Shown here piece after piece: positions 13,447 through 27,291 of a stretch of 64,000 nt of DNA (within the stretch, counting starts at the first letter, position 1; each line of letters begins with the position of its first letter). The position numbers and the translations under genes were made by a program. The stretch spans positions 310,001 to 374,000 of the forward strand of contig NZ_JASISQ010000002.1 in NCBI RefSeq assembly GCF_030063205.1, in the 5' to 3' direction. Source of the DNA: Arthrobacter antibioticus. GTDB lineage: Bacteria > Actinomycetota > Actinomycetes > Actinomycetales > Micrococcaceae. The notes under the pieces are model-generated. The model searched no databases. It saw only the letters and a list, made by a program, of their open reading frames with translations, and was not told the origin of the DNA.

Positions 13447-14289
13447 TCAGCCCTTGACGGCGCCCTGGGTCAAGCCTGAGACAATCTGGCGCTGGAAAAG
13501 CAGAACCAGCAGGACCACGGGAATGGTGACAATGATTGCTGCGGCGGAGATGGCACCGGTGGGCGCCTCAAATTGGGAGGCACCGGTGAAGAACGCCAGT
13601 GCTGCCGGCACTGTGCGCGCTGTTTCGGTGGAGGTGAGGGAAATGCCGTAAACAAAGTCATTCCAGGCGATGAAAAAAGCGATGATCGCCGTGGTGAAGA
13701 CCCCGGGTGCGGCAAGCGGAACTATTGCTTTGCGGAAGGCCTGCCAGGTAGTGGCGCCGTCCACTTGGGCTGCCTGCTCCAGTTCCCAGGGGATCTGGCG
13801 GAAGAATGCGGCCAGGGTCCAGATGGAAATGGGAAGTGTAAGGGATAGATAAGGGATGATCAGCCCCAGCCAGGTGTCGTACAAGCCAATGTTGCGCCAC
13901 AGGTTGAACAGCGGGGTGACGATGGAGATAACAGGGAAAATTGATACGGCGAGTGCGGTTGTCAGCACCACTTTTTTACCCGGGAAGTCCAGGCGGGCAA
14001 TGGCGTAGGCGCATAGGGTGGCCAGCACCACGGCGATGAATGTGGCAATGAGCGCGATGCCGATGGAGTTGCGCAACGCTGACAAGAATAGACCCTGGGC
14101 GTCGCCCACCAAGATCTGCTCGTAGTTCTCCAACGTCCCCGCGCCAGAGGACGGCAGGAACTTCCCTGAGGTGAGGTCGCTGGGTGCCTTGAAGGAGGTT
14201 GAAAGGATGGACGCTACCGGGAATAGCGCGTACAGCAGCACCAAGACGGTAATGACCGCCCAAATGACTTTTTGCTTTCCGCTTGTCAT
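13447..14289 (-). CDS. sugB: Sugar ABC importer permease (SugB/MalG-like)
   Basis: A 280-residue inner-membrane permease with six helices. The EAA loop that docks the ATPase is seen as [20 protein letters not shown], followed by IVPLAAPG. It pairs with the other permease to form the channel. It overlaps the upstream permease gene by 4 bp and is followed by the ATPase gene, a single operon. The gene order (binding protein, two permeases, ATPase) and the type of binding protein point to an LpqY-SugABC-like trehalose or related disaccharide importer. Confidence 0.88.
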
Positions 14290-15257
14290 GATTTACCTCC
14301 CTGCGATCCGGCGAGATCCACTTTGAAGAGTTTGATGGCCACAAAACAAATGATCAGCACACACACGAACAGCAATACCGAGATAGCAGAACCGAGACCT
14401 ATCTCCAGACGCGAAATAGAGGTGCGGTAGGCCAGCAGGGAGAGCACTTCGGTGCCGTGGGCGCCGTTGGTCATAATGAAGACGTTGTCAAAGATCCGGA
14501 AGGCATCCAGGGTTCGGAACAATACGGCCACCATGATGGCAGCCTTCATGTTAGGCACAATCACCTTGCGCATCCGTTCCCACCAGGTGGCGCCATCCAC
14601 TTCTGCGGCTTCGGTAAGCTCACCGGGTACTTGGGCCAGCCCCGCCAGCAAGAGCAGGGAAATAAAGGGGGTGGTTTTCCAAATCTCCGATGCCATGATG
14701 ACAAAGAGTGAGGGCCAGAACTCGGCGAACCAGTTCAAGTCCGTACTGATGCCAGGTATCCAACCAAACCAATGGTTGATGTAACCGGAGTTGATATCGA
14801 AGGCGTAGAACCAGGCGTAAGCGGAAACCACAGTGATGATGCCATAAGGGACCAAAATTGCTGTGCGCAGCAACCCTCGGAGGGACTTGATGGCCTTGTC
14901 CATCACCAACGCCAAAGCGAAACCCAGAATCAGTTCAATAATGACTGTGACAATCGTGATGATGACTGTAACGCCTAAGTCTCGCCACCACACCGGATCT
15001 GACAGGACAGTGATGTAGTTGGCGAACCAGATGAACGCTTTGTCATCGGGTGCGGTCAACCGCAGGGAGAACAGCGAATCCCAGAACGCCTGAAGGATGG
15101 GGTAGAGGGTCACGGCCAGCATCACGATGAAGGCCGGACCGGCAAGATACCAGCCCAGTCTGCGTTCGGATTTGGCCCGGTCACTAAGATTGGCCCGGCG
15201 GCGCTGGCTTTTTACTGGGGCGCCAGCCCTGGACTCCTTGATTGAGGTGGTGCTCAC
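14286..15257 (-). CDS. sugA: Sugar ABC importer permease (SugA/MalF-like)
   Basis: A 323-residue permease with a basic cytoplasmic N-terminus, six core helices and the ATPase-docking EAA loop ELTEAAEVDGATWWERMRKV followed by IVPNMKAA. SugA- and MalF-type proteins form one half of the translocation channel. Its start overlaps the 3' end of the binding-protein gene by 4 bp, and its stop overlaps the next permease by 4 bp, showing tight translational coupling. The substrate is inferred from the binding protein. Confidence 0.88.
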   Translation of the reverse strand: MSTTSIKESRAGAPVKSQRRRANLSDRAKSERRLGWYLAGPAFIVMLAVTLYPILQAFWDSLFSLRLTAPDDKAFIWFANYITVLSDPVWWRDLGVTVIITIVTVIIELILGFALALVMDKAIKSLRGLLRTAILVPYGIITVVSAYAWFYAFDINSGYINHWFGWIPGISTDLNWFAEFWPSLFVIMASEIWKTTPFISLLLLAGLAQVPGELTEAAEVDGATWWERMRKVIVPNMKAAIMVAVLFRTLDAFRIFDNVFIMTNGAHGTEVLSLLAYRTSISRLEIGLGSAISVLLFVCVLIICFVAIKLFKVDLAGSQGGKS

Positions 15258-16585
15258 AGCAGCCTGTCCCCTCTAAGTACGGCAAGGATGAAATCTTGCG
15301 ATTCCTGCGGTGTGGTTTTGGGATCCACCGACGCCGGTGGTGTCCAACGCTGCTGCAGTCCGGTGGAGATCTCGTTGTAGAACGGGGTCTGCGGCCGGGG
15401 TGCGGCGAGCTTGAGTGATTCACGGATGGTGGTGGCCATCGGGAACTGCTTTTCTACCCGCGGATCATCGTAAGCGGTGGAATTTGAGGGAGGGTTTCCA
15501 TTGGTCACAAAGTACGTGGCCTGATTCTTGGGTGAGGTGATGCACTCGATCGCCTTGTAAGCGAGTTCCTTGTTTTGAGAGTGGGAGCCAACTCCTAAGT
15601 TGATGCCACCCAGCGGAGGCGCGGTGTCCTTGTCCGTATCCACTCGTGGATATAAGGCCCAGCCAACGTCATCAAGGACGTCCTGTTTAACGCTTCCGGC
15701 TTTCACCGCCGCATTGGTGGCCGGCCAGACAAAGGGGTAATTGACCATGAACGAGCCCTTGTCCCCTTGAAAAAGGATCATGGAATCATTTTCCGTAGAG
15801 GTGGGAAGCCCGGGACCAGCCAGGTTCTTCTTACCTATAGCGCCGATGATGGTTGCAGCCTGCTCACCTGCCGGGGTGGTCAGGCCCAATTTGATCTCAT
15901 CAGCTTTGGCTCCGGGGTTGAGCAGGATGTGCCCGCCCGCGGATTCGATTAAGGCGTTGATCCAAACGGTCATGGATTCAGCCTGAGCGCCTTGGACACC
16001 CAGATACTTTTTCTCCTCGCCCGCTGCTTTCATGAGCTGTTCCCAGGTGACTGGCTTGGTCATATCCAGTCCGGCTGCTTTTGCAACGGACTTGCGGTAC
16101 CAGAGAATTTGGGTGTTGGCCCAGAACGGAACAGTGACAAGTTTTTTATCCCATGTGGCCCCTGCCAGGGCGCCATCGAGAACATTCTTGGAGGTCCGCT
16201 CAGCAACGTCCGCAGGGACTGGAGCCAGGAATCCGGGCTCAGCAAGTTCGGGAATGAACGGAGGGTCAATGCTCATGATGTCCAGGGATGAATCGCCTGC
16301 TGCCAGACGGCGGGCCAGCTGCTCGCGCTGTGCGGCTGCGTCCTTGGGGAGGAGGGAAGTTTCGATCTTGTAAGCGCCATTGGCGTCGGTGGTGCACACC
16401 GCAGCAAGGTCCGCTTGGCCGCCGTCGTCCGGGTTGATGTACCAGGTGAGGGTGGGGACGCCGTCGGAGGGGGTGCATCCGGGCAAGAGTATGGTGCCAA
16501 CTGCCAGCGCCGTAATCCAGGCCAAAGATCGAAGCCTTCGCCGTTTCCCGCCTGTACGATTCATGCCGGCACTGGTCCTTGGCAT
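15254..16585 (-). CDS. lpqY: Sugar-binding lipoprotein (LpqY-like) of ABC importer
   Basis: A 443-residue extracytoplasmic binding protein. The lipobox LLPGC with Cys37 follows a basic n-region. The mature protein shares landmarks with mycobacterial LpqY: EQLARRLAAGDSSLDIMSID, TNTQILWYR-like ANTQILWYRKSV, and WINALIESAGG, followed by VNYPFVWP. LpqY-SugABC recycles trehalose released during mycolate metabolism; here the ligand may be trehalose or another disaccharide. I chose the ATG at 16585 because GGGAGG stands 7 nt before it; longer in-frame starts lack a good site. It heads a four-gene operon, possibly five with the FUSC gene. Confidence 0.88.
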   Translation of the reverse strand: MPRTSAGMNRTGGKRRRLRSLAWITALAVGTILLPGCTPSDGVPTLTWYINPDDGGQADLAAVCTTDANGAYKIETSLLPKDAAAQREQLARRLAAGDSSLDIMSIDPPFIPELAEPGFLAPVPADVAERTSKNVLDGALAGATWDKKLVTVPFWANTQILWYRKSVAKAAGLDMTKPVTWEQLMKAAGEEKKYLGVQGAQAESMTVWINALIESAGGHILLNPGAKADEIKLGLTTPAGEQAATIIGAIGKKNLAGPGLPTSTENDSMILFQGDKGSFMVNYPFVWPATNAAVKAGSVKQDVLDDVGWALYPRVDTDKDTAPPLGGINLGVGSHSQNKELAYKAIECITSPKNQATYFVTNGNPPSNSTAYDDPRVEKQFPMATTIRESLKLAAPRPQTPFYNEISTGLQQRWTPPASVDPKTTPQESQDFILAVLRGDRLL

Positions 16586-16906
16586 ATTTACGTTCCCTCC
16601 CAACGTAGCCACCAGCCGGGTCCCTTACGCAAAGGCCCGGCCAGCTGTGATCTCCACCATAGTCGCGAGGGGTGCCCTTGGCTATGGGCAATTTGGGTGG
16701 CTATTTTCAGTCTTCCCAATGAATGCTCGACGTCGGAACTTTCCTTGGGCGCACGGGTCTTCTTGCGCTGGGGAAGGGTGAGTGGCAACAATGTGTCGTG
16801 TCTTGTTCGTTGGGCCAGTTCAAGCTGATGAGTTGGGTATTGACTGGGCGACCGCCACGCGTCCGGGGTAAGCCGAACCGGGCATCGAGTGAGAATTCAG
16901 GTCGAA
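16586..16906. other. Gene-free leader of the sugar importer operon
   Basis: About 320 bp between the importer operon and the 3' end of the HAAS membrane protein gene. It must hold the operon promoter. I see the ribosome binding site at 16596-16601 but no clear operator palindrome or coding frame. Confidence 0.5.
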
Positions 16907-17914
16907 TTATTTTCGCCACGTTCTGATCGCCAAAGTGCCGAAGAGGCCCATGGCTCCCAGTGGAAATAATGAGCTCCACGTAAGCCCGCTGGTACTGAGG
17001 GTATCTACCGCTAAGACAACATACGTTAGCGCGATGACGGCATACAACAAGGCCTCTCTACGCTGCGATGCTCGCCGTGGCTTGTCGGAGACTTCAAGAA
17101 TTTCTAAAGCGTAGACCTCAGGTGAACCGAATTCATCATAAGGATGAGAACATCCACTTTCATGCCAAAAATTCTGGGCTTCGGCAACTTGCTGCTGCGT
17201 TTCGATTCGCGAAAGCTGGTAGCGTCCGCGTAAAATTCCTGCGAGCTGATTGAACCATATTTCCGGTGCTTGATCGGAGAAAGTGGCCACGGGTGTCGGT
17301 GAATAAGAAAGTGCCTCCGAGATGATCAGTGCCCCCAGCGAGACTAGAAACGGCAGAAGTGTTGGGAGCTGGAGTAAAGCTGTGTGGTCGGACACCGTGG
17401 CAGCGAGAACAGCAGAGGAAACCAGCCCCACAAGACCGGCCAGCCACCAAGTCCACCCCCAGCGCACGTGGCCGGCATAACGCTGCTGGAAGCCAAAGAG
17501 CGCACCTACCAACGCTACTGTGCCACCCACAGTCAGGGATAACCCTGACGGTGTCAGGAGGAACGACCAACCGCTCACGATGAACAGCCCAATACTCAGG
17601 GATGCACCTGTCAGGCCGGTAGCCGTCAAGAGCACTTTCAATCGATCCCGAGCAGAAATTCCGTCGTTGCCAACTCCTGCGCGAATTTCAGCAGGCACCC
17701 GCTCTCGATGAATTTGCTCGGCGAATGTCACAGGGGATCCGAAAAGTTCACCAGCTCTACACCCAGACTCTTCGCTGGCTAGCTGAGCATCGTGGAGGGC
17801 TTCACTGGCCAACTCGGAAGAGATATTGGGCATTGAAGCCAGAGATTCCGCAAATTCCTGACCCCACTTTTCATCTTCTGGGTTGGACCATTGTCTTTTT
17901 GAACTTAAGTTCAT
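16907..17914 (-). CDS. Multi-helix membrane protein with HAAS-like N-terminal domain
   Basis: A 335-residue protein. The first 85 or so residues form a soluble helical region with the pattern of HAAS domains (EFAESLASMPNISSELASEAL, then GSPVTFAEQI), repeated in part near residues 240-275 (ILRGRYQLSRIETQQQVAEA, then GSPEVYALEILE). Between and after them lie about seven membrane helices. HAAS proteins are sensors usually encoded beside PadR regulators, as here: the gene overlaps the padR gene by 4 bp. The signal sensed is unknown. The internal duplication of the HAAS-like unit is worth noting. Confidence 0.7.
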   Translation of the reverse strand: MNLSSKRQWSNPEDEKWGQEFAESLASMPNISSELASEALHDAQLASEESGCRAGELFGSPVTFAEQIHRERVPAEIRAGVGNDGISARDRLKVLLTATGLTGASLSIGLFIVSGWSFLLTPSGLSLTVGGTVALVGALFGFQQRYAGHVRWGWTWWLAGLVGLVSSAVLAATVSDHTALLQLPTLLPFLVSLGALIISEALSYSPTPVATFSDQAPEIWFNQLAGILRGRYQLSRIETQQQVAEAQNFWHESGCSHPYDEFGSPEVYALEILEVSDKPRRASQRREALLYAVIALTYVVLAVDTLSTSGLTWSSLFPLGAMGLFGTLAIRTWRK

Positions 17915-18336
17915 TGAGGTGCTCCAGTTCGAGAACTTTTTGGTTGATCATCCGTATTTTTTTGGGGACCAGATTGCGGAATCAAAACATCCTTTATTCT
18001 CATCGCAAAAGGCTCCCAGTGGTGCTGGAAATCATTGAGCTGCTCGCCACCTGCTGCGGTTATTGTGTAGACCTTGCGTCCGGGCCCACCTTCGCCCTCC
18101 TGCCACTTCGACGTTAGAAGACCGTCGTGTTCAAGCCGAGCAAGAACGGGATACAAAGCGCCACCTTTGATCGGTCCAATCCCGCTCAATTGCAGCTGTT
18201 GCACCACGTAATACCCATGAGCACTTCCAGAAGACAAAATTGCTAACGCGCAAGTGGGTAGCACTCCGCGCAGCCACTCTTTCCATGCTCGAGGAGGCAG
18301 GCGCTTTGGCGATCTTGATTGTGAGGTCCTACTCAC
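17911..18336 (-). CDS. PadR-family transcriptional regulator
   Basis: A 141-residue winged helix repressor. The family core is visible as AILSSGSAHGYYVVQQLQ, then GGALYPVLARLEHDGLL with the wing GPGRKVYTITAAG. PadR proteins often repress a co-transcribed membrane protein or drug pump; here it overlaps the HAAS membrane protein gene by 4 bp (ATGA), so the two form one regulatory unit, with the sensor controlling or being controlled by PadR. The first 20 residues are basic and probably unstructured. Confidence 0.88.
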   Translation of the reverse strand: MSRTSQSRSPKRLPPRAWKEWLRGVLPTCALAILSSGSAHGYYVVQQLQLSGIGPIKGGALYPVLARLEHDGLLTSKWQEGEGGPGRKVYTITAAGGEQLNDFQHHWEPFAMRIKDVLIPQSGPQKNTDDQPKSSRTGAPQ

Positions 18337-18741
18337 CCTTCGAGGTTACCGCTCAACTCCGAGCGGCGGGTTGCTGCGAGCCACCTCTACGGTGCAATCC
18401 GGGTAGTTACTTTGTACCCGCCTCAGGTTCCCTAGCTTGAACCCCTGTAGCGTCACCTCCGCTGCGGCCGTCTAGGCCCTTTGGTTTGCTGTGTGCTTAG
18501 CGATCAACCCTTTAGGGAGTCTGTCTGTAGCCAAACGGTTGGGAAGGATGAGGGATAGACGATTCGTTGGGGCAGGAAGGCGTGGGAAGATCCCGGTCCT
18601 TTGAACAGCGCAAAAGGTGCTCCTCAGGCTGGTGGAACAGTGTCTGAGCAACATCGTTCCCCGAGCCTAGAAGCACCCTTCGTCCCGTTAGTCGACTCTA
18701 GCGGCGCAGTTGCCGCAAAACCCTCAGTGAATAAATTTGTG
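18337..18741. other. Gene-free stretch at the edge of the accessory region
   Basis: No frame with a convincing start and composition is found on either strand. It should contain the padR promoter. The segment marks the start of a gene-poor region that extends to about 25.5 kb. Confidence 0.5.
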
Positions 18742-18957
18742 CTATTTCTTCTCTTCGAGTTTTAGTGCGATGCCAAGGGCAAAGAACGTTGGGGCCCAAT
18801 GCCCAACGAAGATTCCCCAACGATCGGACTGTGCCTTGGAATGGTCTTTTTTCGCACGGCTGACCAACCAAGAGCTGAGGGATAGCACGATGGATGCAAA
18901 ACCACCGGCGTAGGCATACTCACTCTTGATACCTGCATTGTGCAACATCTCGATCAT
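18742..18957 (-). CDS. Small membrane protein, unknown function
   Basis: A 71-residue protein beginning MIEMLHNAGIKSEYAYAGGF, with two membrane helices (about 16-35 and 52-66) joined by a basic loop SRAKKDHSKAQSDRWG. The ATG at 18957 has GAAGAGAG upstream; a longer frame reaching 19035 lacks a site. It lies downstream of the bacteriocin-like genes on the same strand but about 520 bp away, so co-transcription is uncertain. I do not recognise the family. Confidence 0.5.
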   Translation of the reverse strand: MIEMLHNAGIKSEYAYAGGFASIVLSLSSWLVSRAKKDHSKAQSDRWGIFVGHWAPTFFALGIALKLEEKK

Positions 18958-19474
18958 GGGAACGCTCTCTTCGTGTAAAAAAATTACTTGGACAATCCGA
19001 CTCTGCCACAAGAGACCCCAAAATTGAAGAGCCAAATATGAGGCACAGCAGGGCCAGCGCAGAGAACAGGACCCGTCGCTTAGCCGTGCTTTAGCGCGCT
19101 CCTTATTTTTCCGGATCAGTTCATGTCCGGCTGCGCCAGGGGGATGGCGGTATTTTATGGTGTCGAGGATTTAGGGTGTCGACGCGAGATTTCTCGAGTG
19201 TATTCTCCGTCGCAGTGGGGGAGTCGTCCGTGTGTGGTGAAGAAGTGGGTCTGCCTAGGGTTTGGTTTCGTTGAGTCGATGGCGCAAAAAAGCCTGTGTA
19301 ACTGCCTTCGACATCTCTACTCGATCCGACGCGGTGTTTTGTGACCTCAGTGCCTCATAACCCATGGGTTTTGAGACTTTGCCGGCTACCTATGTCAATT
19401 GGATGTCTGTCCGGGACGGGTCACAGTGATGCCCCCCTTATTGCACACAAGGAGGGTCATCACTAATGTGTGTT
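18958..19474. other. Gene-free stretch with an inverted repeat
   Basis: No supported gene. AGTGATGCCCC (19425-19435) and GGGTCATCACT (19454-19464) form an 11-bp inverted repeat with one mismatch just beyond the stop of the 19475 gene, so it may end that transcript. The rest has irregular composition and no long convincing frame, and might hold decayed mobile DNA. Confidence 0.45.
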
Positions 19475-19681
19475 TTAGGTGGTGGTTGTCCGCTTCGGGG
19501 GCCGCAGGAGGATCAGGGCGACAATTAGGATCGCAGTGATGCCTCCCAGTGTCACGGTGATCCAGAACTGGTGGGGCTCGTAAGCTCCGAACAGTGCCGG
19601 CAGGCTCAGGATCAAAGCTGATGCCATAAGGACCATAGCGATAAACAAGCCCATGAATACCCGGGTGGTTCTCCTAGTCAT
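19475..19681 (-). CDS. Small two-helix membrane protein, candidate immunity partner
   Basis: A 68-residue protein with a basic N-terminus (MTRRTTR), two membrane helices at about 8-28 and 37-58, and a basic/Thr-rich tail RPPKRTTTT. AAGGAG stands 6 nt before the ATG at 19681. It starts 34 bp after the stop of the bacteriocin-like precursor gene on the same strand, so the two are likely an operon. Small basic two-helix proteins encoded right after a bacteriocin gene are often immunity proteins; that role here is inference from position and shape only. Confidence 0.6.
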   Translation of the reverse strand: MTRRTTRVFMGLFIAMVLMASALILSLPALFGAYEPHQFWITVTLGGITAILIVALILLRPPKRTTTT

Positions 19682-19715
19682 AACTGCTCCTTCGTACCGG
19701 GGGTAGGTGGGTGTC

Positions 19716-20492
19716 TTAGAAGCAAGTGGCCACGGCGGTAATTGATGCGCCGCCGACGGTCGCGAAGCCGGCAATACATGCTACACAGAAGGGCACGCCA
19801 ACTCCTACTGCTGCAGCGGCGCAAGCACCTGCGCAGCTGTAGGCGATGATGCTTCCCACGACCCCTCCGACTCCTAGGACGGTCGCAATGCAAGCCCCGG
19901 TGTTCTTATCAGTGCTCGAGTTGGCATCCTTGGCTCCTGGCGTCTGGGACGCGACGAGGTCTGCTTCAAGTTCAGCGTCACTCATAAAGGCGAGGTCGGT
20001 GGCTTGGTTACTTGTCTGTGTCCCGTCGAGATAAGTCTCGATAGCGAAATTCCCAGCCTCGCTCTCGCTCACGAGGGTCTCAGTGTACTGGAGGCGATCG
20101 CCTGAGCTGTCGAAGACCATCGCGATATTACTCGTAAGGCTGTACGGCCCACCTACCGGAACCGTCACGGTCGTAAAGAGCCCCTGGTCCGTGGCGATGG
20201 TGCTGACCTTGCTCTCGGATATCTTCAGCGACTCCGTAGAAGCGTGGACGCTAACCTGGCTGCTGGAAATGGCCGACAGTGCCACAGCAGTCATATCCGC
20301 CGCTTCCTGTTCACCCACAGCTATCGTCGTGAGCACCGTCTTGTCAGCTACCTGGGATGTGCTCGCTGTCGGATTCATTGTCATCGGTGCTGCATTGCTA
20401 GGGGCAGCGTTCGCAGCGCCAGCGGTCGAAACTATTAGGGCCAATCCTGCGAATGAAGCAAAGAGGGATGGAATTCTTCTTTCCTTTATCAT
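19716..20492 (-). CDS. Bacteriocin-like secreted precursor with Cys-containing hydrophobic C-terminus
   Basis: A 258-residue precursor. A signal peptide runs to about residue 29 (ANA cleavage), then a polar domain of about 170 residues rich in Ser/Thr, then a linker (GAKDANSSTDKNT) and a distinct 60-residue hydrophobic, Gly/Ala-rich end (199-258). That end carries six cysteines at 201, 220, 224, 236, 239 and 257 in a CxxxC and CxxC pattern, with a final CF. The layout (secretion signal, long N-domain, Cys-rich hydrophobic peptide) recalls pro-halocin C8, whose N-domain gives immunity, but no sequence identity is claimed. AGAAAGGAAAC precedes the ATG at 20492. It is followed by a small membrane protein. 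Confidence 0.65.
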   Translation of the reverse strand: MIKERRIPSLFASFAGLALIVSTAGAANAAPSNAAPMTMNPTASTSQVADKTVLTTIAVGEQEAADMTAVALSAISSSQVSVHASTESLKISESKVSTIATDQGLFTTVTVPVGGPYSLTSNIAMVFDSSGDRLQYTETLVSESEAGNFAIETYLDGTQTSNQATDLAFMSDAELEADLVASQTPGAKDANSSTDKNTGACIATVLGVGGVVGSIIAYSCAGACAAAAVGVGVPFCVACIAGFATVGGASITAVATCF

Positions 20493-21420
20493 AAATTTGT
20501 TTCCTTTCTCGTGCTTTTCTCGCAATTTATGACCACACCATTAGGGCCTAAATAATAGGGTGAAGCCATACGAGAAGTAGAGACATATGAAAATATTCAG
20601 GAAACTTTTTTCCTGATGCATTTGACGCTATCAATGCATTTTTTATAGGTCAACCCCTAGAGGTGAGTCTTGAGGTTTCCTTGAATGCAGACCACCAGAA
20701 ATATCACCTTGATCACGACCGTCACCTCACCGGACCCTGGGTGATCCCGGATGCTGCCTATGGGCTTGCATAGTGCCCTGTCCCGATTCATGACACATAA
20801 AATTCAAATAAGGAACACAAAAAATTTGCCCATGATTTTCATATAAAGACAATTCTTCGAATTTGCGGTCGTTGAAATCAAGGTTCAATCACGGATATTC
20901 GGTAGGTCCCGTGGATGCACGAAGGCTCGCTTCTCCACAGATAATAACCACCAGCAAATTCTCTTCCTATACTCATCTCGTGGCCACCGACGTAACCACT
21001 GCAACAACTGCTCCTAGGTGCCTCGAATCCCATGCGATGCGAAGCGCCTCGATGACTATCTGGTGCGCACCACTTCCCGTGGACATGAAGAGCGACATTT
21101 TTAGCGAAATGAATTGTCACTATTACAGCCTTCATGCGGTTCTGGTGCCGGAAACAGATCCCCGTTTCACAAGATGTGAGCAAGTCTATGGGACCACCTA
21201 TAAATAGCAAGCATATGTCAGGATACAATTTGCCCGTTTGGATAGTCGACTGTTGTCTTCGCCTGTCCAAATGGGGGATTATTCAGATTTTTGAACTGGC
21301 TTTAAATGCGCATCGCTTTTCTGTGGGGCTAGGAAACCTAGATGAGAAATAGATGACATCTGGCGCAGGTCTTGTCATCAGCAAGTTTTATAGTCAGGAT
21401 TATTAATGAACTGGGGATAT
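20493..21420. other. AT-richer gene-free stretch upstream of the bacteriocin-like gene
   Basis: About 930 bp without a supported gene, clearly richer in A and T than its surroundings (for example 20790-20870). Overlapping frames on both strands (20863-21207 plus, 20878-21270 minus) lack good ribosome binding sites and have non-native composition. It must carry the promoter of the precursor gene and possibly remnants of transferred DNA. Confidence 0.5.
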
Positions 21421-21709
21421 ATGAAAACTCATAGTCGCATTATTACTGGAGCACTTGTTGCGCTCACTGCTTTCGGCCTCATGTGAAGAAGGCGCAACAC
21501 AGGAACTTGCTGCAACTCTGGAAGGAGTCTTCACGAGAGCGATTGTTCTGGACGATTCCGGTGTTGCCTCAATCAACGAAGCTGAGCTTCGCTCCATCCT
21601 TGGGGACGCAGAAGCATCCAAGATCATCACCGAGTTCACTGCAGCTCAGCAAGGATGTGTGCAGATTGCAGTTCGGCTTAGAAATCAACGTTGCGAGACC
21701 GATCCATAA
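21421..21709 (+). pseudogene. Frameshifted small lipoprotein/secreted protein gene
   Basis: A good start (GGGGATAT before the ATG at 21421) leads into a signal peptide, MKTHSRIITGALVALTAFGL, which hits a TGA at 21484. In another frame, coding-like sequence resumes at once with CEEGATQELAATLEG and runs to EFTAAQQG and on to 21709. Removing one base near 21480 would join the two as a lipoprotein with a GLC-type lipobox. So either the gene is broken by a 1-nt insertion or there is a sequence error. The mature part (about 75 residues) has no family I recognise. It overlaps the end of an opposing small gene. Confidence 0.55.
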
Positions 21710-21895
21710 TCCGGTCTCAGCAACTGCGGCTTTCATCTGACTGAGGCTGTGCGAGTGCAGAACTGGCTTCACGAGTGTCGTGGCGATCTCGACTGAATCA
21801 GTTACATCTGGTCGCATGACACTCAATGCAAAGGTTGCTGATTCGTTGCCGCAGCTGGCGACGATGCAGGTGAGTTTTTCTACGATAGGTTCCAT
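21569..21895 (-). CDS. Small protein of unknown function
   Basis: A 108-residue frame beginning MEPIVEKLTCIVASCGNESA. The start is supported by a very strong ribosome binding site, GGAGGAGAACAAC, right before the ATG at 21895. The first 80 residues look plausible; the last 45 or so overlap the opposing frameshifted gene and may be fortuitous, as if a deletion fused the two genes. It has six cysteines and no clear membrane helix. I do not recognise it. Confidence 0.4.
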   Translation of the reverse strand: MEPIVEKLTCIVASCGNESATFALSVMRPDVTDSVEIATTLVKPVLHSHSLSQMKAAVAETGLWIGLATLISKPNCNLHTSLLSCSELGDDLGCFCVPKDGAKLSFVD

Positions 21896-22145
21896 GTTGT
21901 TCTCCTCCAGTAATGGCCCCTAAGCTAGGCGGAACCAAGTATCGATCCAAGAGAAGCGAATTTGAGTGACGGACCTCTGCTGTGTGGGTGTCCACCAAGG
22001 TGTACCCGAGCGAACATAGTGGAGCCACCAGATAGCGTACTCAACCAGGGGTCTCAACTACGGACCCAGAGCTACATGGTTTATACCGAGATGAGGAGTT
22101 CCTTCTGCGCTCCCGGTGGACGTGGGACAAGTAAACGGTCGATGG

Positions 22146-22907
22146 TCACACGATGGGCAAAGAACCAGTGGCTTTGGTCGTGGCCGGTGTCTCTGGATTT
22201 TGGTGACGTGCTCCACCGGTCATTTCCAGACGTAGTGCCTTGATTTCTTGGTGGAGCAGTTCGATATGTTCGGCTGTCAGAGTCTGAGTTTTAGCGTCTT
22301 CGGCTGAGACCTTGTCGACCAGCCAGCTTGCCAGGGTCGCGGTAACAATGCCGAGTAGTGCTATGCCGCCAATCATGAGCCCGACGGCTATAAGGCGCCC
22401 CGTGGTTGTCACCGGGTACAGGTCGCCGTATCCGACTGTTGTGATGGTGACTATGGCCCACCACGCTGCCTCGGCAAAAGAGTGGATAGACGCGTCTGGT
22501 GCGGTTTTTTCGGCGTCGTACATTGCCAGAGCGCCGATGTAGGTCAAGAGCGCAGATGCGGCAATGACGTAGGTGACCACGCGCCCGCGTAGGGCGTTGC
22601 CAGCTACTCGTTGAAGGACTCCGATGAGGGTGACTAAGCGAAGGAGCCGCAAGGGTCGCAGCATTGGCAAAAGCACAATCGCCAATTCGTGTAGATGTTT
22701 GAAGAACCAGTTCAACCGTTGTGGCGCCAACCATAGTGAGATTCCGTAGTCAATCAAGAACAGTGCCCATGTGGTCATCATGAACCAGCCTGCTATCAGG
22801 GCCACCGACTCCGACGCCAGTACTTGGGCAGAATAGGCTGCTAGGAACAGGACTGAAATGATGATTAATGGCCACTCGGAGGCACGTTCCCATTGCTCTA
22901 AAGTCAT
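22146..22907 (-). CDS. Voltage-gated-type potassium channel
   Basis: A 253-residue six-helix cation channel. The selectivity filter TVGYGD is at about residue 157-162, flanked by a pore helix AAWWAIVTITTV. An S4-like helix carries regularly spaced arginines (MLRPLRLLRLVTL). The C-terminal tail has a short coiled coil (AEHIELLHQEIKALRLEM) that may hold the tetramer together. It should conduct K+ across the cytoplasmic membrane. The gene is monocistronic and borders the broken resolvase. Confidence 0.93.
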   Translation of the reverse strand: MTLEQWERASEWPLIIISVLFLAAYSAQVLASESVALIAGWFMMTTWALFLIDYGISLWLAPQRLNWFFKHLHELAIVLLPMLRPLRLLRLVTLIGVLQRVAGNALRGRVVTYVIAASALLTYIGALAMYDAEKTAPDASIHSFAEAAWWAIVTITTVGYGDLYPVTTTGRLIAVGLMIGGIALLGIVTATLASWLVDKVSAEDAKTQTLTAEHIELLHQEIKALRLEMTGGARHQNPETPATTKATGSLPIV

Positions 22908-22916
22908 GACGGAAGC

Positions 22917-23300
22917 CTATAGGTCCCTACTGGGTTCAAGATCACCGGACTGTGCATTGGCTAATTTCGAACGCTGTTTCTTTAGGGCGTGTGCTTGCTT
23001 GACGTTGGGGTGGGTGGCGGTGACTTCTTGTCGTCCTGCTATGCGTCCGTGAGAGGTTGTGATGCCATCGCGGAGGGAATGGAAGTTCATGCCCCGTGCT
23101 TTGAAGCCATCCAAGAGTTCGAGTACGTATGAGGTTTTGCGACCTGGTCTGTCCAACTTCCAGACCATGACTTAGTCTCTGTCATTGAGGAGGTCCAGCA
23201 CCTCGTCGAGTTCGGTGCGGCTGGTTTTGGTTCCACTCATTCCGTTAGCGCGGTAGATCTGTTCACAACCGGTAGCTTCCAATCCACGTCGCGAGGTACC
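22917..23300 (-). pseudogene. Serine recombinase/resolvase remnant
   Basis: Read on the minus strand, the frame carries resolvase catalytic-domain landmarks: GCEQIYRANGMSGTKTSR with RTELDEVLDLL, then an in-frame TAA at the point where resolvases read LVVWKLDR, then VWKLDRPGR and FHSLRDGITTS. After that about 45 residues are missing and the sequence jumps to the C-terminal helix-turn-helix part HGRIAGRQEVT with VKQAHALKKQ. The N-terminal YARVST segment is also absent. The gene therefore has an internal stop, an internal deletion and a lost start, and cannot make an active enzyme. It marks a past mobile element. Confidence 0.82.
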
Positions 23301-23441
23301 GACGCGCGGGAGTGGTTAATGAGTGTCTTGTCAAAGGTTCATTTGGTTGGATGAAGGGGCAGTGGTGTGCCTAATAATTAACGTTCTTCTCGAGCTCTAT
23401 GAAGTTGGCACATACGGTCCGTAAGCAGCCAGCTTCCCTGC

Positions 23442-23969
23442 TCACCACCCGGTTGTACCAGGGCCTCCTTTGAATGGTCCAACGATCTGCGGTGTAATCC
23501 AACCGCCATAGAAGTCGCCCTCTTGGAAGGTGACTTGGACGCCGTCGACTTCGCAAGAGTCCATATGACTGGGGTAAAGCGCCACCCGGGTACTCAGGGC
23601 TTCGAAGCCCTGGCTGGGATCCGGGTAAGTCCATCCGGCACGGGCAGCAATGACGCCCCCGGCGGTGACGTCGAAGTAATGCGCCACCCCTTTGAATTCG
23701 CAGAAGCTGGTGCCGTTGACCGGGATGAGGGCACCGGCAGGAAATGCGTCCAGAGGCAAGTAATAGACAGGCGGGTGGCTGGTCTCTAGGACGCGTGCTG
23801 CCTTGGTGGTATCGGCAATGATTTGTCCACCAAGTCTGACAACAACCCGTTCCGATCTCTGCTCCAGTTTTGGGGGCCGGGGGTAGTCCCACACCGATTC
23901 TTGGCCGGGCAAGGGTTTGATGGGCTGGGGGCGACGGGGGAACCCTGAGTTACTGTGAGCAGGAGTCAT
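23442..23969 (-). CDS. DUF427 domain protein
   Basis: A 175-residue soluble protein. The DUF427 beta fold is seen from about residue 40 to 165, with VVVRLGGQIIADTTKA, then the strand PPVYYLPLDAF, GTSFCEFKGVAHYFDV and the end QVTFQEGDFYGGWITP. The family is widespread in actinobacteria and fungi, and no activity is established. ATG start at 23969. It lies alone on the minus strand, with a broken resolvase upstream of the channel gene on one side and a GntR unit on the other. Confidence 0.88.
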   Translation of the reverse strand: MTPAHSNSGFPRRPQPIKPLPGQESVWDYPRPPKLEQRSERVVVRLGGQIIADTTKAARVLETSHPPVYYLPLDAFPAGALIPVNGTSFCEFKGVAHYFDVTAGGVIAARAGWTYPDPSQGFEALSTRVALYPSHMDSCEVDGVQVTFQEGDFYGGWITPQIVGPFKGGPGTTGW

Positions 23970-24240
23970 TTGCCTACCCTGTCATAGATCCACAGTTCCG
24001 GTACAGCAACATCTTTGAGTCGTGGCTTGCCGGCTTGTTTAACATCTGGCTCTAGAGTCTCCGACCCGCAGGTGGCAGATTTAGTGCCGCGCTAAGCGCG
24101 GAGAGGGACTCTTCGAATGTGACAAAAACTGGAACGTACTTTGGGTGATTGCGATTCCCGGGTCCAGATGCTGCTCAGTGAGCCTGGTCGCCAGTCAAGG
24201 TAGCGGAAATAGACCACCAATTGGTCGTGTTAACAGTGCA

Positions 24241-24576
24241 CTACTTTAACTCGTAGGGGGATTTTAGCGCCGCTGGTGTTTCGTCTCGTGGTGACTTGGC
24301 CAGATATCGGGTAGTTTCTGGGGCGGGTTTGGTGATTGTGGCGGCCGTGAGGCTGATGCGAGTTCCGCTACCCGTTCTAGTGAGCAGAAACCCTTCAGAT
24401 TCCAGCGATCGGTAGGCCTTTGCGACTGTGCCCGGGGCCACTCCGAGGTCTTTAGCGAGTTGGCGTACTGACGGCTGGCGTTCATCCGCCGCGAGCAGGC
24501 CGCTGGCGACCAGTCCATGGATATGGTCATGAATCTGATCCCTGGGTGGCGCGGACCCGGACAGCTTGATCATCAT
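24241..24576 (-). CDS. GntR-family (YtrA-type) short regulator
   Basis: A 111-residue repressor with the GntR winged helix-turn-helix (RQPSVRQLAKDLGVAPGTVA, then KAYRSLESEGFL with the wing TRTGSGTRIS) and only a short tail, typical of the YtrA subfamily. Such regulators control an adjacent membrane protein or ABC exporter and respond to cell-envelope stress. The ATG at 24576 overlaps the stop of the upstream membrane protein gene, giving translational coupling. I discount a longer 251-residue frame because its first 139 residues are out of frame with the real upstream gene. Confidence 0.88.
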   Translation of the reverse strand: MMIKLSGSAPPRDQIHDHIHGLVASGLLAADERQPSVRQLAKDLGVAPGTVAKAYRSLESEGFLLTRTGSGTRISLTAATITKPAPETTRYLAKSPRDETPAALKSPYELK

Positions 24577-24983
24577 GGCAGGACCGCGATCGGCGCGCGC
24601 TGACGGGTTGGAAAGGCGGACAACACGAGAATGACCCATAGTGTTACACCCAGTGCAGCGCACAGTATCGATGTGCCGCTGAACGTGGGTGCAAGGGCGG
24701 AGAGTGTGGTCCAAGATGTCATGGGGCCCGCGGAAGTTGTGAACACTGCTCGCAGTGAAGAGGTCGCTACGAGCGAGTTGAAGATAAGCCCCAGGTGCAA
24801 CAGCAGTGCACCCGTCCCTGCCATGACGAGGTTCCAGCTCCTCGCTATGCACCCGCGGATGTCCTGTCCCCGATCCGGTGCCAGAGCTGGCTTGGCGATG
24901 AACAGCAAAGCGAGGATAGCAACCGCGATCAGCAAGCCAGTGAGGATCATGGACGGAACAGAGTAGAACCATCCGCCCTTCAT
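24573..24983 (-). CDS. Four-helix membrane protein coupled to GntR gene
   Basis: A 136-residue protein with about four membrane helices (around residues 12-31, 50-70, 82-100 and 106-124). Its stop overlaps the start of the YtrA-type regulator by 4 bp, so the regulator probably controls it. The sequence does not match a family I know well. Start taken at the ATG at 24983; a weak site precedes it. Confidence 0.65.
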   Translation of the reverse strand: MKGGWFYSVPSMILTGLLIAVAILALLFIAKPALAPDRGQDIRGCIARSWNLVMAGTGALLLHLGLIFNSLVATSSLRAVFTTSAGPMTSWTTLSALAPTFSGTSILCAALGVTLWVILVLSAFPTRQRAPIAVLP

Positions 24984-25506
24984 CGTCTTGTGTCATCTGA
25001 CTGAGACATTAATGTGTCAGTGAAGTGCTTAGCTCAGGCACTGGATCCCAGCTTTCGGCGCCTATTCTTAGCTGTCTTTAGGCTTCTTCCATGCGGCGTT
25101 CGGGGCGAGCTGGGAGACAGCGGAAATCTTGACCCTGTTGGCCGCGAGTACTCCCTGGACTGGTTTGTCCTCTTGGCTAAGAACCATCGAGCGCGTGCGG
25201 CGGACGATCTCAGAGGCCGTGGTGGAGGGCTTCCAGACAATGTCCGCCAAGACAGATAATCCGCCCGCGTCGACGTGATGGGCTCCGAGGCTTTTCCTTA
25301 CTTCCAGCGCAATCGCGGGTAATGAATTCAGGGTCCATCACCAGTGATGGATAAGTTATGAACTGCCTCAGCAGCAACCAAGTTCCAAACTATGTCCTGA
25401 TAGTGGCCGGTATTGCCATCCTGGGTGCCAACCGATTCGCAGCCACCACCGTCGTTTGAAAGCACGGCATGAGCCTCCGAGGTGAGGCCGCCAATACCGA
25501 GAGAGG
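24984..25506. other. Mostly gene-free stretch with one doubtful small frame
   Basis: About 520 bp. The only coding-like piece is on the minus strand at 25068-25250 (60 residues from a TTG, containing ANRVKISAVSQLAPNAAW), whose residue use looks natural but which lacks a good ribosome binding site. It may be a small gene or a fragment. Nothing else is seen. Confidence 0.4.
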
Positions 25507-25932
25507 CTACTTTTTGGTGTCGTCGTTGGGGTGCTCTTCGCGAAGCTTAGCCTCACGAGCATCAAGATCAGCTTTGAGTTTGCGGAGCCTTTCGGCTTCA
25601 CTTTTCTGAGCCCGGTTGACTTCCAAATTACGCAGAAATTCCGGGTTGTCATCCGGGGCAACCGAGCGTCCTGAACTGCCCTGGAAGGACGGTCCCCGCT
25701 GGCTTCCAGTAGAACCATTTGACCTCTGGGCGGAGCCAGGAGCCGCCGCAGCATACTGTGGCCGCCCGAAGAGGAACCACAACGCAACACCAATAACGTT
25801 CAGCAGCACAATGACAACGATCCAGGCAGACTTCGGAATGCTTCGCACGTCGCTGGGTTCACTGCGAAGGCAGTCAATGAGTCCGTAGACAAACAGGACC
25901 ACAGCTAAAGCCGTGGGAATAATATAGCGCAT
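25507..25932 (-). CDS. PLDc_N domain membrane protein
   Basis: A 141-residue protein. Two membrane helices at about 4-21 and 37-56 enclose the PLDc_N signature (LIDCLRSEPSDVRSIPKSAW, ending in LWFLFGRP), the N-terminal piece of cardiolipin-synthase-like proteins found alone in many actinobacteria. A Ser/Gly linker leads to a charged C-terminal helix (RAQKSEAERLRKLKADLDAR) that probably forms a coiled coil on the cytoplasmic side. The gene is next to the menaquinone genes, an order seen in related genomes. Function unknown. Confidence 0.85.
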   Translation of the reverse strand: MRYIIPTALAVVLFVYGLIDCLRSEPSDVRSIPKSAWIVVIVLLNVIGVALWFLFGRPQYAAAAPGSAQRSNGSTGSQRGPSFQGSSGRSVAPDDNPEFLRNLEVNRAQKSEAERLRKLKADLDAREAKLREEHPNDDTKK

Positions 25933-26016
25933 ACCTCAGTCTAGCGTTGAGTGCCCAATTGAGCCTCTTGGACAGTTGCCGGGCAGACACTCAGTTTCAG
26001 CGGCTAAACTTGATTC

Positions 26017-26403
26017 GTGGCTTTCTTCAAATACTCCCTTATTCGCGGCGTGCTCTTCCTGGCGTTCTTCCTTATCGCCTACTTATGGATAGATTTATCT
26101 CCGCTTACAGCTGCCTTGATTGCGGCGCTCGCTGCGTTTTTGGTCAGCTTCTTATTCCTCCGCAAGCAACGTGATGGTGCTACAGCGGTGGTTGCTGACA
26201 GATTTGCCCCGCAGGCCACCACCACTCAGTCGGCCGGCGCGCTGGCGGACGCAGATGCAGAGGACGCGCTGATCGATGAGAACCCGGACATCTGGATCGA
26301 CGCCGACCGCAAGCCTGGCGAAGCCAATGCTGATGCTGCCAAACCCGATGCTGCCAATGTTGACGTAAATAATGCTGATGCCACGAAAGGCGAGCTAGCC
26401 TAA
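26017..26403 (+). CDS. DUF4229 membrane protein
   Basis: A 128-residue protein beginning at GTG 26017. The first 50 residues hold two membrane helices with the DUF4229 pattern (FKYSLIRGVLFLAFFLIAYL and LTAALIAALAAFLVSFLFLR). The rest is an acidic, Ala/Asp-rich tail containing repeated NADA/DAA steps, probably disordered. It is convergent with menA, and homologues lie beside menA in related actinobacteria, but a link to menaquinone synthesis is unproven. Confidence 0.85.
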   Translation: MAFFKYSLIRGVLFLAFFLIAYLWIDLSPLTAALIAALAAFLVSFLFLRKQRDGATAVVADRFAPQATTTQSAGALADADAEDALIDENPDIWIDADRKPGEANADAAKPDAANVDVNNADATKGELA

Positions 26404-26412
26404 CGTCCGCCG

Positions 26413-27291
26413 CTACAGCTCTGTCAGCACCATAGCCGCAGCGAAGAGGACGCTGAACCCAAGGTTGATCAGACCCGTCTGCTGCAGAACCGGGATCAGC
26501 GACTTACGCTTCTTGCCCTTGAGCATGAGCCAGCAGGGCATCAGCATGAACGGAACAAGCAGCAGCACCAGCAGAATCCACGGTTTTACAGGTGCTATGA
26601 ATATCATCAAGGCAAGCGAGAGCGCCATCATGACCACATAGCTCCGGCGCGCGTTCTTATCCCCCAACCGCACGGCGAGAGTTAGCTTGCCCACCTCGGT
26701 ATCGGTGGGAATATCCCGGACATTGTTAGCCATCAAAAGTGCGACGGCGATCAGTCCCGTTGAGAAGGAACCTAACACTGCCGCCGTACTCACGGACCCG
26801 GCCTGGGTGAAAGTGGTACCTAACGTTGCTACGGGTCCAAAGAATACAAACACAAAGACATCACCTAGCCCCATGTAGCCGTAGGGACTTTTGCCGCCTG
26901 TGTAACCCCATGCCGCAAATACGGCGCCAACGCCTACTAGCAGCAGCCACCACGCTTGGGATGCAAGCACCAGAAACAGCCCGGCCAACATGGCCAGCCC
27001 AAACATGGTGAAGGCAGCCATTTTCACGTGCGACGGTTTAGCCGCGCCACTGCCAACCAAGCGCAGTGGGCCCACCCTAACCTCGTCCGTGCCGCGGATG
27101 CCATCAGAGTAATCGTTGGCGTAGTTCACGCCAATTTGTAGCAGCAGAGCCACCAAAGCGGCCAGAACTGCCCGGTCCCAGTGCAAAGCACCCAGATCGT
27201 AGGCCGCGGCAGTACCGATTATCACGGGAGCCACGGCCATGGGAAGGGTCCTCAAACGTGCCCCGGAAATCCATTGACCCAGAGTGGCCAC
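26413..27291 (-). CDS. menA: 1,4-dihydroxy-2-naphthoate polyprenyltransferase
   Basis: A 292-residue UbiA-type membrane prenyltransferase with nine helices. It joins a polyprenyl chain to 1,4-dihydroxy-2-naphthoate, giving demethylmenaquinone. The first Asp-rich motif is NYANDYSDGIRGTD (about 57-70), followed by VGPLRLVGSG, and the second is DIPTDTEVGKLTLAVRLG (about 192-209). AAGGAG stands 7 nt before the GTG start at 27291. It is the last of menB-menE-menA on the minus strand, though 87 bp separate it from menE. Confidence 0.94.
   Translation of the reverse strand: MATLGQWISGARLRTLPMAVAPVIIGTAAAYDLGALHWDRAVLAALVALLLQIGVNYANDYSDGIRGTDEVRVGPLRLVGSGAAKPSHVKMAAFTMFGLAMLAGLFLVLASQAWWLLLVGVGAVFAAWGYTGGKSPYGYMGLGDVFVFVFFGPVATLGTTFTQAGSVSTAAVLGSFSTGLIAVALLMANNVRDIPTDTEVGKLTLAVRLGDKNARRSYVVMMALSLALMIFIAPVKPWILLVLLLVPFMLMPCWLMLKGKKRKSLIPVLQQTGLINLGFSVLFAAAMVLTEL

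Follow-up and report, generated by a model that had tools for sequence, protein, structure and literature searches.

What function is served by a gene for a secreted, cysteine-rich protein and the very small membrane-protein gene that follows it is the question raised by this locus, which lies in a 64,000-nucleotide stretch of Arthrobacter antibioticus DNA (the window). An earlier note had read the two genes, from the letters alone, as a bacteriocin precursor and its immunity protein, and its description of the locus held up well. The genes occupy positions 19475-20492, both on the minus strand (Table 1); the precursor combines a hydrophobic leader with a polar N-domain and carries six cysteines with CxxxC and CxxC spacing and a final CF; and the 68-residue basic protein encoded 34 nt past the precursor stop has a net charge of +5 and two hydrophobic segments. 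The AT-richer setting was also borne out (GC 0.494 at 20001-22000 compared with 0.554-0.619 in the other 2-kb steps), as was the mobile remnant nearby, a resolvase fragment at 22917-23168. We consider it likely that the pair encodes an exported, protease-activated, membrane-acting pro-bacteriocin and a dedicated two-helix immunity protein, in which, we infer, the precursor is cleaved, the released peptide kills other bacteria and the partner protects the producer.

Table 1. Features of the precursor-partner locus (positions in the window; -, minus strand).
Feature	Position	Strand	Description	Basis
Precursor gene	19716..20492	-	258 aa; start 20492, stop 19716-19718	Open reading frame, homologues, dN/dS
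Putative export leader	20403..20492	-	About residues 1-30	Read by eye from the sequence
Globular N-domain	19932..20336	-	Residues 53-187; helix and antiparallel strands; probable pro-domain	
C-terminal cysteine-rich peptide	19719..19910	-	Residues 195-258; probable mature bacteriocin	Invariant cysteines, dN/dS, model
Partner gene	19475..19681	-	Basic protein of 68 aa with two membrane helices; probable immunity protein	
Promoter-like element, GTTGAC-N18-TAGCGTC	20624..20654	-	Upstream of the precursor	Conserved spacing in the compared loci
Strain-variable segment around the pair	19096..23296	.	About 8 kb of different DNA at this place in the conspecific genome G019	

Homologues of the precursor were found in Actinomycetota and on one Bacillota plasmid, and their distribution was sparse: one of the 23 genomes of the genus (the genome of the window itself), 12 of 395 genomes of the family (13 matches less G076, at 20.6 bits an N-terminal match only), 10 of 396 of the order, one of them marginal, and 2 of 396 of the phylum, again including the window's own genome. 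The six cysteines (residues 201, 220, 224, 236, 239 and 257) all fall within the last 58 residues, in a C-terminal stretch that is hydrophobic in sequence next to the polar N-domain. They were invariant across all 11 rows of the alignment of precursor homologues (A1), and when the alignment was extended to further families of the order (A6, 16 rows) five stayed invariant, the sixth and last not being aligned in the two weakest members. In comparisons with the homologous Arthrobacter loci L003 and L008, the precursor gave a dN/dS of 0.09-0.10 and the partner one of 0.17-0.19. Because the six cysteines are kept in 11 homologues and dN/dS is well below 1, we take both to be real genes. Across the alignments the N-domain changes faster than the C-terminus; in four pairs of relatives dN/dS was 0.10-0.14 for the N-domain and 0.00-0.036 for the last 63 residues, with synonymous sites near saturation in some pairs, which is no concern for the L003-L008 pair, where dS was about 0.25 and dN in the C-terminus was 0.

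In an AlphaFold2 model the N-domain formed a helix and an antiparallel sheet (block means 84-93 across residues 61-180) and the C-terminus four short helices (mean pLDDT 79.8), joined by a low-confidence linker near residues 188-198, which is therefore the expected place of cleavage. Circular and saposin-like bacteriocins are defined by a saposin-like helical bundle. The leader, as read from the sequence, is a hydrophobic N-terminus ending in ANA/APS; it contains an RR pair in the window protein and in L003, L008, L004 and L005, which is absent in L006, and the route of export may be Sec or Tat.

A plausible course of events can be built from these features. The precursor would be exported by means of its N-terminal leader; after export, the six cysteines in the C-terminal 60 or so residues could pair into three disulphides about a small helical bundle, and the N-domain, which is predicted to be folded, might keep the peptide soluble or inactive. 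A general extracellular or host protease would then cut the linker and release the peptide; no protease or transporter was common to the neighbourhoods compared. The hydrophobic peptide would act on the membranes of related bacteria, and the two-helix protein in the membrane of the producer would block it, a role that is favoured by the asymmetric retention of the two genes described below.

The earlier note had also allowed that the C-terminus might prove to be a known structural or enzymatic domain, but no such family was found in Pfam, NCBIfam or the PDB sequences. The window precursor gave 0 NCBIfam families at E<=10 and, against Pfam, one chance-level line (E 3.4, residues 158-219); the precursor profile gave 0 matches to PDB sequences at E<=10; and one scan of viral_contigs and one search of phages gave no match. 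Searches of Pfam and NCBIfam with single proteins and with the alignments A1, A4 and A6 returned only lines that were below cut-off or at chance level. For the partner, the best of these lines were to the fluoride exporter family, seen in 4 of 13 members (E 0.00095), to phage holin 2, also in 4 of 13 (E 0.001), and to SecG, in one (E 0.015); as they disagree among themselves, they were read as effects of composition and rejected. The precursor represents a real family that has so far no name, and a description of the precursor-partner pair was not found in a partial literature search that covered titles and the openings of abstracts.

The downstream membrane gene had been expected to be conserved beside homologues of the precursor; this proved true of its position and only partly true of its sequence, the likeness being in some loci one of layout. 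At 22 of 23 family loci, a basic ORF of 50-80 aa with two helices starts between -4 and +68 nt from the precursor stop, the exception being the Bacillota locus L009, where no partner was found; the background frequency of such a neighbour was 1 in 128 among other ORFs of at least 200 aa (11 stretches of DNA). The count of 23 keeps the near-identical loci L018 and L019 and the weak members L102 (35.2 bits) and L105 (21.1 bits, without the N-domain), and leaves out L021, L103 and L032 (partial or spurious), the broken second copy L023/L037, and duplicate records such as L010-L013 and L015. Within the Micrococcaceae most of the partners are recognisably related (A4), and L027, L097 and L098 also have partners of related sequence, whereas at L018/L019, L099-L102, L104 and L105 the likeness is limited to layout (size, topology and charge). 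In a comparison of eight neighbourhoods (L003-L009 and 16 kb of the window), all eight had the precursor and six had a partner match at E<=1e-6, the partner of L007 being detected only with weaker matching; all other matches linked just two loci each, and the eight had no transporter or maturase in common. Another two-helix protein was seen in the partner's position at L018:150-413 (minus strand), L019:1272-1535 (minus) and L037:2098-2340 (plus); these three resemble each other and not the A4 family.

A promoter-like pattern, in its fullest form TTGAC-N17-TANCGTC, had its best match at one spacing upstream of the precursor in the seven Arthrobacter-type loci compared. Of a maximum score of 11, five loci reached 10-11, L014 reached 9 and L006 reached 8; a score of at least 8 was obtained by about 29% of shuffles and a score of 10 by 0.2%, so that the value for L006 is at chance level, and the pattern was derived from the same loci on which it was scored. 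The element was not found in L007, L009, L016-L019 or L027. It had one exact match in its own genome; with one mismatch allowed there were 12 genome matches compared with 20 for the reversed control, and therefore no regulon is claimed.

The conserved element and the very low C-terminal dN/dS could also point to a secreted signalling peptide, its C-terminus constrained through receptor binding, with the two-helix protein as a membrane receptor or response modulator; receptors, too, may persist in cells that no longer signal. So tightly conserved a C-terminus is, moreover, unusual for a toxin engaged in an arms race, and in this respect the data speak against a bacteriocin. However, a partner of 68 residues leaves no room for a signalling domain, and in other families the partner diverges past recognition while the peptide keeps its cysteines, the reverse of what is expected of a receptor with a fixed ligand. 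In addition, clear partners outnumber precursors by 32 to 12 in the 395 genomes of the family. A signalling role is thus unlikely, and the excess of partners is more readily understood if the pair is a bacteriocin and its immunity protein.

That excess was seen both in genome counts and at individual loci. The partner was present in 32 of the 395 family genomes at E<=1e-10 and in 58 at E<=1e-3; the 26 genomes between these thresholds were set aside, none of them being in the list of precursor genomes. Precursor and partner occurred together in 10 of the 395 (Fisher p 1.7e-10, with kinship ignored). Among the 30 best partner loci, a whole or broken precursor lay within 1.5 kb in 10, and the other 20 had none beyond relics, orphan status here referring to 1.5-kb flanks and, outside two genera, to a single-protein precursor search that a far-diverged precursor could escape. 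In those two genera (38 and 35 genomes) a search with the precursor profile found none in the five genomes with only a partner at E<=1e-10 (G173, G205, G292, G216 and G288). In a tree of the partners, paired and orphan partners were interleaved, the starred branches forcing at least six changes, with 66 columns that resolve little. A second, distant orphan partner is present in the window's own genome, on contig C11 (L026:1432-1641, minus strand; E 1.2e-10), at a locus without a precursor.

Several precursors were found in a state of decay beside an intact neighbour. An intact two-helix gene lies next to a precursor with an in-frame TAG in L014 and in L007/L015, and next to a frameshifted precursor in L020/L022; in L037 an intact, different two-helix ORF adjoins a precursor with a TAA and a truncation. 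Decay had gone further in the genus of Paeniglutamicibacter antarcticus: L084 retains, directly before the partner, some 35 residues of the cysteine-rich end as a relic (E 4e-5), L087 the same relic in a more decayed form (E 0.03), and L088 one that was recognised only through its likeness to L087.

These arrangements bear on the idea that the partner is a helper in maturation or export of the precursor and not an immunity protein, for which its close adjacency and its small, basic, two-helix shape would be suitable. A helper should vanish with its substrate, yet two-thirds of the best partner loci have no precursor within 1.5 kb beyond relics, and one locus (L005) has two tandem partners for a single precursor. 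Because the partner is kept beside broken precursors, beside relics or alone, we read it as an immunity protein, and the role proposed for it in the earlier note gains support in this way; a helper function seems very unlikely. Two loci count against the bacteriocin reading as well, namely L009, which lacks a partner, and L087 in genome G157, where the partner has ACG in place of its ATG start codon.

The TAG codons of L014 (1852-1854) and L007 (6232-6234, equal to L015:1735-1737) fall at the same aligned codon in two genera, with an ATG four codons on, and the aligned codon is CAG in the window and in five intact relatives. Programmed recoding at this position was considered; as a single step would turn 28 of the 247 codons of L006, the nearest intact relative, into TAG, coincident decay is quite possible.

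The pair lies in a segment that varies between strains. The conspecific genome G019 matches the window at the same place on both sides, at 14000-19095 (98%) and 23297-26500 (99%), and its DNA in between is different except for the resolvase stretch, which matches weakly (71%). At one edge of the segment the window has the resolvase fragment and G019 a full resolvase gene (L051:820-1434), which suggests that this edge is an integration hot spot. Two plasmids, one of Arthrobacter agilis and one of Pseudalkalibacillus, also carry copies of the precursor. The pair occupies differing surroundings as one unit and looks like a mobile accessory trait. Sporadic presence in genus and family, copies on two plasmids and in a variable segment here, and the breakage of several precursor copies make it quite improbable that the precursor is a structural protein of the cell surface or envelope with a disulphide-rich anchor and an adjacent but unrelated small membrane gene, even though the window protein reaches no bacteriocin family model. 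The variable segment also encodes an ion-channel protein (Pfam Ion_trans_2) at 22146-22907 on the minus strand.

Several known systems resemble parts of the proposed bacteriocin. Propionibacterial PAMP and propionicin F are secreted precursors activated by an extracellular protease. Sporulation-delaying toxins of the SdpC type have, by definition, the maturation genes SdpA and SdpB beside the toxin gene; in the eight neighbourhoods compared here, precursor and partner were the only genes to recur widely. Halocin C8 is the cysteine-rich C-terminal part of the precursor ProC8. According to a review (PMC11509114), ProC8 is exported, is 283 aa long and yields a halocin of 76 aa, the rest of the same protein being the immunity factor HalI. 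The window precursor, with a putative leader at its N-terminus and its cysteines near the C-terminus, may resemble halocin C8 and the model TIGR04450 ('putative immunity/bacteriocin fusion') in yielding a cysteine-rich C-terminal bacteriocin from an exported precursor; the difference is that in halocin C8 immunity resides in the same protein, whereas in the window it is the two-helix gene, a separate one, that suits this role, although the N-domain may contribute to immunity too. The halocin C8-like connection raised in the earlier note persisted as a faint trace: the window protein had no match to TIGR04450, the Gram-positive halocin C8-like model, while the distant relative L102 scored E 0.082 (12.5 bits, cut-off 27). 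Similarly, another distant member, L105, scored E 0.001 against the geobacillin 26 model (18.9 bits, cut-off 40), and we regard these two sequence scores as hints of bacteriocin kinship, not of membership. A haloarchaeal protein, HFX_0892, is described (PMC12893001) as a secreted precursor freed by an extracellular protease; the likeness is one of description, and its active part is the N-terminus, in contrast to the C-terminal peptide of the window.

A parallel in layout was provided by alicyclobacillin 24, which is reported (PMC13176240) to be secreted, to be active against its own genus and to raise propidium-iodide uptake, a membrane-associated effect. Its locus in Alicyclobacillus acidoterrestris belongs to the Geo26 family (NCBIfam NF035925), which, like the window pair, has an exported protein of about 240 aa with a hydrophobic C-terminal part (a likeness of layout, with the leader read by eye) and a basic two-helix ORF downstream at both Geo26 loci examined. 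In A. acidoterrestris this ORF lies 63 nt past the alicyclobacillin 24 gene (L107:20951-21139, minus strand; 62 aa from a TTG, 49 aa from the first ATG) and is absent from the PLSDB gene table; at the A. fastidiosus Geo26-family locus it is an annotated ORF of 54 aa, 69 nt downstream. The main text on alicyclobacillin 24 (PMC13176240) does not contain the word 'immunity', and the ORF at L107 is a candidate for its immunity gene. The two families differ, however, in that alicyclobacillin 24 has two cysteines compared with six in the window precursor, the window protein did not match NF035925, and hhalign of A6 against alicyclobacillin 24 gave a probability of 1%, that is, no detectable homology; this, together with the failure of the window precursor to match any bacteriocin model, counts against the bacteriocin reading.

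If that reading is right, the pair would establish a new family of Actinomycetota bacteriocins whose dedicated immunity protein is very small, would point to a candidate for the immunity gene of Geo26-type bacteriocins, and would show that resistance genes are more numerous than toxin genes in this bacterial family. A direct test is feasible, as it involves one peptide and one 68-residue protein. More tentatively, and with somewhat less than even confidence, we suggest that the pair may exemplify a widespread class of two-gene cassettes, so far unrecognised, that spans Actinomycetota and Bacillota and in which an exported pro-protein with an inhibitory globular pro-domain and a membrane-active C-terminus is followed by a fast-evolving two-helix immunity protein, Geo26 being included by layout. 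Were this true, orphan partners would represent a community-wide stock of resistance, and the immunity of Geo26-type bacteriocins would be identified in the same step.

In the L016/L036 precursor, possibly another damaged copy, the 5' end had no recognisable in-frame export leader, and in the Bacillota precursor (L009:5825-6621) the leader and the mature part lie in different frames, owing to a frameshift or a sequencing error.
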